37,294 bases of DNA from Actinomycetes bacterium (GTDB taxonomy: Bacteria; Actinomycetota; Acidimicrobiia; Acidimicrobiales; Aldehydirespiratoraceae), in NCBI GenBank assembly GCA_024276495.1, contig JAJRXC010000046.1, positions 1-37,294 on the forward strand, written 5' to 3'. The position numbers and the translations under genes were made by a program. The notes beneath the pieces are model-generated. The model saw only the letters and a list, made by a program, of their open reading frames with translations, was not told where the DNA came from and searched no databases. Positions within the stretch are counted from its first letter, which is position 1. Each line of letters starts with the position of its first letter. Shown one piece after another: positions 3,546 to 30,282 of the stretch.

Positions 3546-3818
3546 CTACTCGTCGCCGGAGGTCAGCTGCTCGCCGAAGGCTCGCAAGCGGTCGATCGCC
3601 GCCGTGTCGACTTCCGGCAACTTGGCGGCGAGCGAGGCCTTGATCCGACGATAGGTCTCGACCTCGAGCCCGCAGTCCCGGCAGGCTTCGAGGTGCTTCG
3701 CGATCTTGTCGGCGAAGCCCGGCTCGACGTCGTCGTCGAGATAGCTCTGCAGCACCTTGCCGACCTCGCGGCAGTTCACTTCCGGACGGTGGCGTCGGGT
3801 GCGGGCGCGGCGGATCAT
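3546..3818 (-). CDS. Zinc-binding anti-sigma factor (RsrA-like)
   Basis: A 90-residue ZAS-family protein. The motif H42-x3-C46-x2-C49 (KHLEACRDCG) plus the upstream C16 matches the redox-sensing zinc site of Streptomyces RsrA and mycobacterial RshA. Such proteins hold their sigma factor until disulfide stress oxidises the cysteines and releases zinc. The histidine normally four residues after the first cysteine is glycine here (CREVG). Its ATG overlaps the stop of the sigma gene (positions 3815-3818), so the pair is translationally coupled. The basic N-terminus (residues 1-12) precedes the conserved domain; a later start cannot be excluded, although the overlap favours this one. Confidence 0.9.
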   Translation of the reverse strand: MIRRARTRRHRPEVNCREVGKVLQSYLDDDVEPGFADKIAKHLEACRDCGLEVETYRRIKASLAAKLPEVDTAAIDRLRAFGEQLTSGDE

Positions 3819-4375
3819 GTCGGTCGTCCGTTCACGTAGGCACCGCTCGCTTCGAGATGTTTGCGGATCCGGGTCCGGGCCCGGTGGAGGCGGCTCATGA
3901 TCGTTCCCGTCGGAACGCCGATGATCTCCGCGGCCTCGGCATAGGAGAGCCCCTGGATGTCGACGAGATCCACCACCTCCCGGAACTTGTCGGGGAGCGC
4001 CCCGACCGCCTTCTCGACGGCCGCGTCGAACTCGGACTCGACGACGAGGGCCTCGGGTCCGAGATCCTGGGAGTCCTCGTCGGCGAGTCGTTCCATGGCC
4101 GCGTCGGGGTCACGCAACAGCTCCGGCCGTTTGCGGCGCACCCGGTTGATCTGGGCGTTGCGCATGATCGTCAACAGCCAGGCACGTGGATGACGGCCGT
4201 CGAAACGCAGGATGGCCCGGTAGGCCCGTAGCATCGTGTCCTGAACGAGATCCTCCGCATCGGTCGGGTTTCTGGTGATGGAGCGGGCGACCCGGTAGAG
4301 CACTTCCAGTTCCGGGACGACGTAGCGGTCGAACGCGGCCTTTTGGGCCAGTTCGTCGACGGCGGGCTCGGACAT
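3815..4375 (-). CDS. sigR: ECF RNA polymerase sigma factor, SigR/SigH type
   Basis: A 186-residue group IV sigma factor. Region 2 contains [16 protein letters not shown] and [10 protein letters not shown]; region 4 contains [20 protein letters not shown]. The distribution of residues, the linked ZAS anti-sigma and the SigR-type promoter in the divergent region identify it as the thiol-oxidative-stress sigma factor (SigR in Streptomyces, SigH in mycobacteria). The start at ATG 4375 (MSEPAVDEL) agrees with family length; a longer reading upstream has no conserved residues. A minus-strand TAGCTT (4389-4384) lies 8 nt before the ATG, suggesting a leaderless housekeeping transcript. No SigR-type promoter is seen on this side. 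Confidence 0.92.
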
Positions 4376-4383
4376 ACGTCGCG

Positions 4384-4389
4384 AAGCTA
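4384..4389 (-). promoter_or_regulatory. -10 element for the sigR gene
   Basis: TAGCTT on the minus strand, 8 nt before the sigR ATG; fits the leaderless pattern seen across the window. Confidence 0.45.
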
Positions 4390-4420: not shown

Positions 4421-4447
4421 GGGAATGGCCGACGGGCCGCACGGGTT
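4421..4447 (+). promoter_or_regulatory. SigR/SigH-type promoter (GGGAAT-N18-GTT)
   Basis: GGGAAT at 4421-4426 is followed, after exactly 18 bases, by GTT at 4445-4447. This equals the published Streptomyces SigR consensus GGAAT-N18-GTT. It points away from sigR and ends 8 bases before the ATG at 4456, so transcription would begin at or just before that start codon. Confidence 0.75.
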
Positions 4448-4455
4448 TCGCCGCC

Positions 4456-4638
4456 ATGGGACGGATGCACCGGGCCCGGTGGGCCACGGCCCTCGAGGGG
4501 CTTCTCGACGACGAGATCGATGCCGGTCGGGTCGAGCGCGTCCTGGCCCATCTCGAGGAGTGCCCCGACTGCCTGCGAGAGCTCGAGATGTTGATCGAGA
4601 TCCAACAGTCCCTCGGCCGTCTTCTCGGCGTCTTGTAG
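4456..4638 (+). CDS. Small zinc-finger protein resembling an anti-sigma domain
   Basis: A 60-residue protein with the ZAS core H32-x3-C36-x2-C39 (AHLEECPDC) flanked by predicted helices: [13 protein letters not shown] before and [13 protein letters not shown] after. It lacks the N-terminal cysteine and most of the length of RsrA, so it looks like a minimal ZAS domain. It is transcribed divergently from sigR, behind a SigR-type promoter, with no Shine-Dalgarno, so it is probably induced by SigR and translated from a leaderless mRNA. A plausible role is a second, inducible brake or redox buffer on SigR; binding to SigR is inference. It ends 62 bp before the globin gene. Confidence 0.75.
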
Positions 4639-4700: not shown

Positions 4701-5120
4701 ATGAGCGACTCCGGCCGGGAAGTGAGTGTGCACGACGTCGTCGGGAGCGACTTCTTCGCGGATCTCGTCGAGCGGTTCTATGTCGGCGTCGCCGACGACG
4801 AGCTGTTGCGGTCGATGTATCCCGTCGATCTCGCCGGCGCCAAGGCCCGACTGGCGATGTTTCTGGTGCAGTACTGGGGTGGACCGACGACCTACAGCGA
4901 GAATCGTGGGCATCCTCGGCTGCGCATGCGCCACATGCCGTTCAAGATCGACGAAGCGGCTCGTGACGCGTGGCTGCGGCACATGCTCGCCGCGCTGGAC
5001 GAGACGGCCGCGGCCCGTGAAACCCCGCCGATCGTGGTCGACGCCGTCAGGGAGTACTTCGTGCGTTCGGCCGACTTCCTCCGCAACACGCCCGAGCCGC
5101 CGCCCACGCAGAGCGTGTAA
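4701..5120 (+). CDS. glbO: Truncated haemoglobin, group II (HbO-like)
   Basis: A 139-residue 2/2 globin. Characteristic HbO features are [11 protein letters not shown] in helix B/C, the motif [24 protein letters not shown] containing the proximal histidine, and ARDAWLRHM carrying the conserved group II tryptophan. Group II truncated globins bind oxygen tightly and are linked to oxidative and nitrosative stress and respiration. ATG 4701 is chosen because conservation begins soon after it and a TAGCGT -10 lies 7 nt upstream. It sits beside the redox sigma locus but has its own promoter-like element. Confidence 0.92.
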
Positions 5121-5284: not shown

Positions 5285-5566
5285 ATGAACAAGGGTGAAC
5301 TAGTCGCCGCAATGGCCGACAGCGCTGGTGTCAGCCAGAAAGACGCCGGAGCCTGCCTCGACGCGATGTTCGAAATCATCGCCGATCAGGTCAGCGCCGG
5401 AAACGAAGTCGCCATCACCGGATGGCTCAAGGCGGAGCGGGCCAACACCTCGGCTCGCACCGGCCGCAACCCGCAGACCGGTGAGACGATCCAGGTTCCG
5501 GCCGGCACCCGCACCAAGCTGACCGTCGGATCGAAGTTGAAGGCCGCGGGCAAGAGCCGTCGCTGA
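5285..5566 (+). CDS. hup: HU-family DNA-binding protein
   Basis: A 93-residue HU/IHF-fold protein. It begins MNKGELVAAMADSAG, typical of the dimerising helices, and contains the arm signature SARTGRNPQTGETIQVPAG followed by LKAA. It bends and compacts DNA as a dimer. It lacks the long lysine-rich tail of mycobacterial and streptomycete HU, ending simply in GKSRR. AGGAG at 5274-5278 gives a clear ribosome-binding site six bases before ATG 5285, unlike many neighbours. The 164-bp upstream gap holds the direct repeats and presumably the promoter. Confidence 0.92.
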   Translation: MNKGELVAAMADSAGVSQKDAGACLDAMFEIIADQVSAGNEVAITGWLKAERANTSARTGRNPQTGETIQVPAGTRTKLTVGSKLKAAGKSRR

Positions 5567-29499: not shown

Positions 29500-30282
29500 C
29501 TACTCGCAGATGTCGCCGGCCCGCCAGCCGACCTGGAAGAAGGGGGTGGTCCCGTCGAGTCCGTCGGCGCGGTAGCTCCCGTCGGGGTGATTGACGAAGG
29601 TCACCCCGAAGATGTCGACCGGGTTGATCGCGACGCCGAGGGCGGCGGCGACCTCGTTGCCGCTCTGGCCCCATGCCACACCGTCGTGGAGCACGATGTC
29701 GTCGGGAGTGGGACCGTCGGGGTCGAAGAATCCGGCGAGACCGCGGCGATACGACCATCCGGCGAGTTGCTCGGGCCGGTCCCAGCGATCGAACCGGATG
29801 CGGAGGTTGCCGTAGTCGACCACCCGTTCGTGGTCGTCGGGGCCGCCGTCGAGTGGGCAGCCGGCGTTCCACCCGGAGTCGAAGTCGGGAGCGCCGTAGA
29901 TCGCGTTCATCGCGGCGAGGACGTCGGCCACCGGGGTTCCCGGGGGGAGGCCGAGGATCTCTCCGGTGGTGACGTCGGCGACCGGAGGTGGATCGGTCGG
30001 TGTCGACGTCGTGGTGGTGCTCGCGGTGGTCGTCGGGGCGGTGGTCGTCGTGGTCGTGGGGGCGACGGTGGTCGATGATGCGGCGGCGGTCGTGGTCGTG
30101 GTCGGTGGCGCCGTCGTCGACGTGGGGGCCGCCTGGTCGGCGGCGGAGGTCGTCGGCGCCTCGGCCGCCACGGTCGTCGTGTCGGGCCCGTCGTCGCCGA
30201 GCAGGGCGACGGCGCCCACACCGACGAGGATCCCCACCAGCAGGATCACGACCGCGACGAGAACTCGTTCTCTTCGTGACAT
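29500..30282 (-). CDS. Membrane-anchored surface protein with Thr-rich stalk
   Basis: A 260-residue exported protein of unknown function. Residues 1-6 are basic, residues 8-28 form a membrane helix ([21 protein letters not shown]) with no lipobox cysteine, and residues 34-98 are a low-complexity Thr/Ala/Pro/Ser stalk that could be O-mannosylated. The C-terminal domain (residues 100-260) starts [20 protein letters not shown], has cysteines at 143 and 259 that may form a disulfide, and repeats the TPxxDI/VGWRAGD type of strand. Similar stalked proteins occur in Acidimicrobiia. A minus-strand CAGGCT (30294-30289) 6 nt before the ATG suggests a leaderless transcript divergent from uvrB. Confidence 0.75.

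Follow-up and report, generated by a model that had tools for sequence, protein, structure and literature searches.

A second, HHCC-type zinc anti-sigma-like protein divergent from an ECF sigma factor gene as a candidate anti-sigma brake

The window analysed here, a stretch of 37,294 nucleotides from an Actinomycetes bacterium of the Aldehydirespiratoraceae, carries an ECF sigma factor gene adjoined by two genes for small zinc anti-sigma (ZAS)-like proteins, ZAS1 downstream of it and ZAS2 divergent from it, and the 60-aa ZAS2 is of the HHCC type and is preceded by a SigR-type promoter of its own. We consider it fairly probable, from sequence comparison, that ZAS2 is an anti-sigma brake on the window sigma factor, a role that would entail both binding of this sigma factor and induction by it. 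The more specific reading, that two ZAS proteins of opposite redox behaviour act on one ECF sigma factor and that ZAS2 is the oxidant-blind, sigma-induced HHCC member of the pair, is advanced tentatively and by analogy with characterised relatives.

The locus, its promoter and its distribution

The sigma factor gene (3815..4375, minus strand) encodes 186 aa with Sigma70_r2 and Sigma70_r4_2 domains, and its stop codon is overlapped by the start codon of ZAS1 (3546..3818, minus strand), a 90-aa CHCC zinc anti-sigma-like protein (zf-HC2, 28.2 bits) found where the initial annotation had placed a ZAS-like partner. On the plus strand, ZAS2 (4456..4638) matches Pfam zf-HC2 at 29.6 bits (cutoff 22.2) and has a zinc motif, H32-x3-C36-x2-C39, that substantiates the 60-residue H-x3-C-x2-C reading frame described in that annotation. 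A TAGCTT on the minus strand (4384..4389), 8 nt 5' of the sigma gene ATG, is a possible housekeeping -10 element of the sigma gene. Beyond ZAS2 lie a bacterial globin gene (4701..5120, plus strand; Bac_globin, 103.9 bits), which we leave out of the circuit, and a gene for an HU-type DNA-binding protein (5285..5566, plus strand; Bac_DNA_binding, 86.1 bits). Among the 33 loci with 2.5 kb of upstream sequence, the divergent side of the sigma locus carries a globin gene in 11 and an HU gene in 23, and a ZAS2-globin operon is not general, given these 11 of 33 loci and a gap of ~1.4 kb in L036.

The initial annotation named the sigma gene sigR, and this label did not survive comparison with the family model. 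Against TIGR02947 (SigR/SigH), the window sigma factor scores 115 bits (cutoff 251.55), and the best match in the same genome (G000) is a gene elsewhere, G000:C79:87372-87908, which reaches 245 bits, itself just below the cutoff, and has an RsrA-like gene of the CHCC type after it; SigR orthology of the window sigma factor was rejected on these scores. The solved chain closest to the window sigma factor is 5zx2_F, a SigH (E 1.2e-29).

The promoter of ZAS2, GGGAATGGCCGACGGGCCGCACGGGTT at 4421..4447 on the plus strand, is an exact instance of GGGAAT-N18-GTT, with a -35 element GGGAAT at 4421-4426 and a -10 element GGGTT at 4443-4447. Compared with the SigR-type consensus GGGAAT(G/C)-N16-(C/G)GTTG (PMC3489674), the window reads GGGAATG-N16-GGTTT, and the last base is the sole mismatch. 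Since the GTT ends 8 nt 5' of the ATG at 4456, the mRNA of ZAS2 is probably leaderless. Judged by this window only, the motif hardly exceeds chance, as GGGAAT-N16..20-GTT occurs twice where 0.42 are expected and 5 of 100 shuffles contain two or more. It stands above chance because it is conserved across related loci: a form of GGAA(T)-N15..17-(G)GGTT with at least 8 of 10 bases matching lies 7-10 nt 5' of the start in 40 of the 42 ZAS2 ORFs that we collected, a count to be read with the relatedness of these loci in mind, as they do not represent 42 independent events, whereas 500 rounds of shuffling of the upstream sequences averaged 0.016 such cases and never exceeded 1. The exact sequence GGAAT...GGGTT is found in 27 of the 42 upstream regions, and the two that fall outside the count (L197 and L213) have a GGATT variant. 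At L017, the promoter and the ORF have decayed together. The initial annotation was borne out on two points: a SigR-type motif stands ahead of the small ORF, and this ORF encodes a second, minimal ZAS-like protein and diverges from the gene of an ECF sigma factor.

To place the locus among its relatives, sigma factors were gathered from 100 related genomes, a named genome collection, and 397 genomes of the order, 83 of which gave a sigma match at 1e-45. This yielded 100 distinct sigma loci (sigma identity no lower than 50 percent across 126 residues or more, one locus per distinct N-terminal part), of which the window is one and in which the near-identical L050 and L051 are both counted. The initial annotation had proposed a search for the divergent layout in related genomes, and the layout recurs: a divergent ZAS2-like ORF is present in 41 of the 100 loci, 39 of them with the promoter 7-10 nt from the start, although 4 of these 39 promoter-bearing ORFs failed a loose helix-1 filter and were counted as ZAS2 anyway. 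One further ZAS2, at L283, belongs to a genome with the sigma gene but is located apart from that gene; it has its own promoter and brings the total to 42. In the other 59 loci, ZAS2 is missing or was not recognised; L056, with the promoter and an ORF whose zinc motif is broken, and L020, with the promoter and a 15-codon ORF, went uncounted. On a quick sigma tree, the presence of ZAS2 requires at least 18 changes.

At closer range, ZAS2 was found in 10 of 10 sigma-carrying and in 0 of 20 sigma-lacking genomes of the same genus or family (Fisher p 3e-8, with genomes that are not phylogenetically independent). These were drawn as 10 of the 13 genomes with a strong full-length sigma match and 20 of the 37 without one, and G025 (the genome of L017, with its decayed ZAS2), G026, G031 and G030 (a partial sigma match) were left out. 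One of the 20 sigma-lacking genomes, G009, has a weak ZAS2 match beside a SigR-type gene. Among the close relatives, the ZAS2 gene is under purifying selection, as dN/dS lies between 0.12 and 0.37 in all 15 pairs of six close-relative sequences.

Zinc ligands and predicted fold

The two ZAS proteins differ in their predicted zinc chemistry. The pattern C-x24..26-H-x3-C-x2-C (CHCC) occurs in 62 of the 63 distinct ZAS1 proteins collected (tblastn E 1e-10 or better, stop codon present). The H-x3-C-x2-C motif is found in 42 of 42 ZAS2, a count that holds by construction since the relatives were gathered by the same motif. What distinguishes them is a conserved N-terminal His, absent from the initial annotation, which makes ZAS2 an HHCC-type protein: by alignment, it replaces the N-terminal Cys of ZAS1 in 41 of 42 cases, at the aligned Cys column in 30 and one column earlier in 11, among them the window, where H5 is the predicted fourth ligand. 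The exception, L193, has a His-Cys pair near the expected ligand position. When a fixed spacing is imposed instead, the N-terminal His is recovered in 37 of 42, and four of the five failures are shifted by at least one residue in the alignment. The fourth ZAS ligand has been described as a His or Cys separated by 24-25 residues (PMC6432622) and as lying '23-26 amino acids N-terminal' (PMC4960319); H5 of the window, with 26 residues between the ligands, is one above the narrower range.

The nature of this residue may bear directly on the response to oxidants. Rajasekar and colleagues (PMC4960319) report that oxidative release requires the N-terminal Cys of RsrA and that an RsrA Cys11His variant is still bound to sigma-R under H2O2, despite zinc loss and formation of the Cys41-Cys44 disulfide, and also that this variant forms a weaker complex with sigma-R, with the off-rate rising from 0.0027 to 0.064 per s. 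As ZAS2 has a His in place of the sensing Cys, the RsrA analogy implies that it should hold sigma under disulfide stress and that oxidants should not release it. RslA, an HHCC protein, is reported to be oxidant-responsive and is in this respect an exception among HHCC proteins (PMC2877774).

The AlphaFold2 model of ZAS2 (mean pLDDT 88.7) consists of three helices, at residues 3-17, 23-35 and 37-59, and has no helix IV, one helix fewer than the four-helix ZAS domain. ZAS1 was modelled with four helices at low confidence (pLDDT 55.9). Asp18 is invariant in the alignment of all 42 ZAS2 and presumably occupies the position of RseA D11, an equivalence that we take from a structural alignment with MucA together with the MucA and RseA sequences. 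RseA D11 contacts sigma region 4. Class I anti-sigma domains engage this region with helices 1-3 and region 2 with helix 4, helix IV of relatives being thought to block core binding (PMC7406223). Lacking helix IV, the ZAS2 of the window may therefore be a weak inhibitor. In the longer ZAS2 relatives, the C-terminal segment aligns with the corresponding part of ZAS1, and length varies, with 17 of 40 scored loci encoding ZAS2 of up to 70 aa and 23 encoding longer forms (L217, where a contig end cuts the ORF, is omitted and L283 is off the tree); the length class requires at least 7 changes on the quick sigma tree. Tentatively, as part of the same joint reading, the window could be one of several lineages in which ZAS2 has been pared down to three helices that clamp sigma region 4.

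Among the nearest folds to the ZAS2 model are anti-sigma domains whose structures were determined in complex with a sigma partner, namely RsiW (Z 7.4), MucA (Z 7.3) and RslA with sigma-L region 4 (Z 6.4), and the DdvA structure follows at Z 3.7; for small helical folds, Z values of 3.7-7.4 could reflect a shared arrangement only, and Foldseek with this small helical model returned no match at E 0.001 or better. The ZAS2 sequence profile finds DdvA, 3hug_B (titled RslA), RsiW and ChrR, and the ZAS1 and ZAS2 profiles align with each other at E 9e-21. On the RsrA model TIGR03988, ZAS2 scores 31 bits and ZAS1 29.6 bits, both below the curated cutoff of 62.5.

Proposed circuit, rival readings and known systems

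The circuit that we propose draws on the gene, its promoter, its conservation, the ligand difference and the co-occurrence with sigma, together with the predicted three-helix model. In reducing cells, ZAS1, the CHCC protein encoded with the sigma gene, would hold sigma, and disulfide stress would oxidise ZAS1 and set sigma free, a step suggested by the RsrA family. Free sigma would then drive the ZAS2 promoter and give rise to a probably leaderless ZAS2 mRNA, a step suggested by the promoter evidence. ZAS2 would in turn re-capture sigma via region 4 and, not being released by oxidant, would limit or end the response while the stress lasts, giving a pulse or a ceiling. If the proposal is true, the circuit would use the redox behaviour of anti-sigma factors as one of its parts: exchanging a single zinc ligand would convert a sensor that lets go into a brake that stays on, and both would have been placed by evolution under one sigma factor. 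ZAS2 would then be a natural counterpart of the RsrA Cys11His experiment and, at 60 aa, a very small clamp for sigma. A rule would follow: leaderless, sigma-driven HHCC paralogues beside CHCC partners would mark self-limiting redox regulons.

The small size of ZAS2 also admits the opposite sign of action, in which it would dock on region 4 and exclude ZAS1 with core binding left unblocked, or would bind ZAS1 itself, so that positive feedback would result. The missing helix IV and the forms of up to 70 aa at 17 of the 40 scored loci would suit such a decoy, and a Methylobacterium NepR paralogue has been proposed to act via a partner other than sigma (PMC4814048). However, the promoter and RNAP surfaces of sigma-L region 4 are occluded when RslA is bound to it (PMC2877774), and docking on region 4 alone should therefore still inhibit, while the 23 longer forms have room for helix IV; we regard this reading as unlikely. 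It is likewise improbable that ZAS2 targets another sigma factor, such as the SigR-like protein at G000:C79, and thereby mediates cross-talk between two redox regulons. The GGAAT-N-GTT motif may be common to both regulons, and SigR-like and RsrA-like genes reside in the same genome as ZAS2, but ZAS2 tracks the window sigma factor in the 10 of 10 versus 0 of 20 comparison, and in G009, G023, G024 and G028, which have a SigR-like gene with a ZAS neighbour, the ZAS2 match is below threshold or weak.

The initial annotation also allowed for zinc or thiol buffering, and a function of this kind, or another small-protein function with ZAS2 as a mere regulon member, is compatible with a small protein that carries a zinc-site motif and with the release of zinc by oxidised RsrA (PMC4960319). 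One zinc per 60 aa would nevertheless make for poor buffering, the invariant Asp18 is not a zinc ligand, and ZAS2 is stably linked to one sigma locus; the co-occurrence with sigma and the invariant Asp18 fit an anti-sigma role better, which weakens the buffering proposal and leaves it quite improbable. That the ORF and motif arose by chance and have no function is scarcely credible: the motif is barely above chance in the window and GC-rich DNA has many open frames, but conservation contradicts this reading, both in the dN/dS values of all 15 pairs and in the promoter kept at 40 of 42 loci.

Read as an anti-sigma brake, ZAS2 can be set beside several characterised systems. The locus resembles SigR/RsrA of Streptomyces and SigH/RshA of mycobacteria and corynebacteria in pairing an ECF sigma factor with a CHCC ZAS protein encoded downstream, and in the promoter type and the thiol-redox targets, and it differs from them in that the window sigma factor falls below the family cutoff, with another gene of the genome fitting better, and in the addition of a second, divergent, HHCC-type ZAS with its own promoter. 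The NepR system is a partner switch that involves another protein family and is not known to involve zinc. Its paralogues (in Methylobacterium, and RsiA1/RsiA2 of Sinorhizobium) are comparable in that a single stress sigma system has more than one anti-sigma-type protein, of which one is induced by sigma (PMC4814048). ChrR of Rhodobacter shares the HHCC zinc site and a three-helix zinc core (PMC6432622; profile match to 2q1z_B at E 0.0017), but it has a helix IV and a cupin sensor domain, whereas the ZAS2 of the window is the bare three-helix core. RslA of M. tuberculosis is likewise of the HHCC type, and its structure in complex with sigma region 4 matches the ZAS2 model with an rmsd of 3.1 over 55 residues, at the Z of 6.4 given above, yet unlike ZAS2 of the window, it is membrane-anchored and is the anti-sigma factor of SigL (PMC2877774).

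The initial annotation knew of no description of the circuit, and this stands in part. Feedback through a sigma-driven anti-sigma factor is already known from C. glutamicum, where rshA has a SigH-driven promoter and free sigma raises its own anti-sigma factor, enabling shut-down (PMC3489674). There, the factor raised is the same redox-sensing anti-sigma factor, whereas the window has a separate paralogue that lacks the sensing Cys. What appears to be new here is the second ZAS of other zinc chemistry: among the matches listed from freely accessible literature, judged by titles and abstract openings, none was found to describe a CHCC ZAS and an HHCC ZAS acting together on one sigma factor.

Genes behind the motif

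The motif also lies 5-12 nt 5' of the sigma gene start in 46 of the 100 distinct loci, with an exact match in 32 (against an average of 0.2 and at most 2 in shuffled sequences), which suggests that sigma factors of the window type are autoregulated and so points to them as readers of the motif. In the close relatives L005-L017, L036 and L040, no ECF-type site was found facing the sigma gene, and a TANNNT resembling the TAGCTT of the window was seen by eye in close relatives. Self-regulation of SigR by the same motif was considered and rejected, as 19 of 20 SigR-type loci are without it in the 500 bases upstream; the remaining locus has the motif 219 nt upstream, and the L141 frame is truncated.

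Across the order, where 194 genomes gave a match to the motif with a placed start codon, there are 220 such sites in the 83 sigma-carrying genomes (2.65 each, sigma loci included) against 160 in the 314 genomes without this sigma factor (0.51 each). Several genes behind the motif in sigma-carrying genomes relate to thiol redox: a glutaredoxin-family gene (PF00462) starts right after it in G174, G355, G340 and G376, and a thioredoxin-fold lipoprotein-like gene (PF00578, PF00085) follows it in G174, G355, G340 and G348, a DsbD_TM membrane protein gene in G147, and a pyridine nucleotide-disulfide oxidoreductase gene in G093 and G223. A SigR-like job for the window sigma factor is plausible because of these genes, and together with the motif before the sigma gene, they make induction under disulfide stress plausible as well. 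DUF3179 proteins (G174, G355), ZAS1 (G340) and ZAS2 are also encoded behind the motif. The DUF3179 genes (PF11376, 345 and 352 bits) lie near the sigma locus in L279 (G174:C2) and L280 (G355:C67), and the ZAS1 gene with its own sigma-type promoter in L281 (G340:C29) is reminiscent of rshA of C. glutamicum. Many sites in remoter genomes precede genes without a clear theme, such as those for HD-domain and VTT-domain proteins. In G017, which is without the window sigma factor, the motif precedes an Rv2466c-like gene, and the motif alone therefore cannot separate the window sigma factor from SigR.

Within the window genus, the ZAS2 site is present in five of seven genomes; G001, which is 66 percent complete, and G002 have neither this site nor a strong sigma match. 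The ZAS2 promoter is the only site with N16-17 spacing that was seen to recur in the genus, N15 having been searched in the window genome only. Among the glutaredoxin-like genes of the genus, two of six (L288, L289) have GGAA(C/T)-N-GTT-like sites by script, and GGAAG variants were seen by eye before others, including one in G002; these sites may belong to SigR, because G002, without the window sigma factor, has a variant.

In the window genome, GGAAT-N15..17-GGGTT occurs at six sites, three of them 8-9 nt 5' of a plausible gene start, namely those of ZAS2, a nitroreductase on C50 and a Crp-type regulator on C71. At the C102 site, an ATG lies 8 nt after the motif with no ORF of 40 aa, and a 415-aa ORF starts 52 nt after the motif; the start 16-60 nt after the C5 site is unconvincing, and the C75 site has no start among those listed. 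The Crp-type regulator (L120; PF00027 69 bits, PF13545), which begins 9 nt after a GGAAT-N15-GGGTT site (G000:C71:96567-96591, minus strand), is a possible further member of the regulon of the window sigma factor. The nitroreductase (L119, G000:C50, near 29632-29656) is of the Rv2466c type, with GGAAT-N15-GGGTT 9 nt 5' of its GTG, and an in-frame TGA, possibly a selenocysteine codon, takes the place of the first Cys codon of its CPWC motif (DPI*PWC); PF22234 matches the part after the TGA at 120 bits. Thioredoxin-like genes of the genus likewise have an in-frame TGA at the first Cys of CxxC (WFWAPW*TRC, APH*PTC), in 11 of the 16 loci returned (L290, L291, L292, L294-L297, L301-L304), and this TGA looks like a selenocysteine codon (UxxC); L301 has a second TGA, and L303 is the copy in the window genome (G000:C99:114227-114403).
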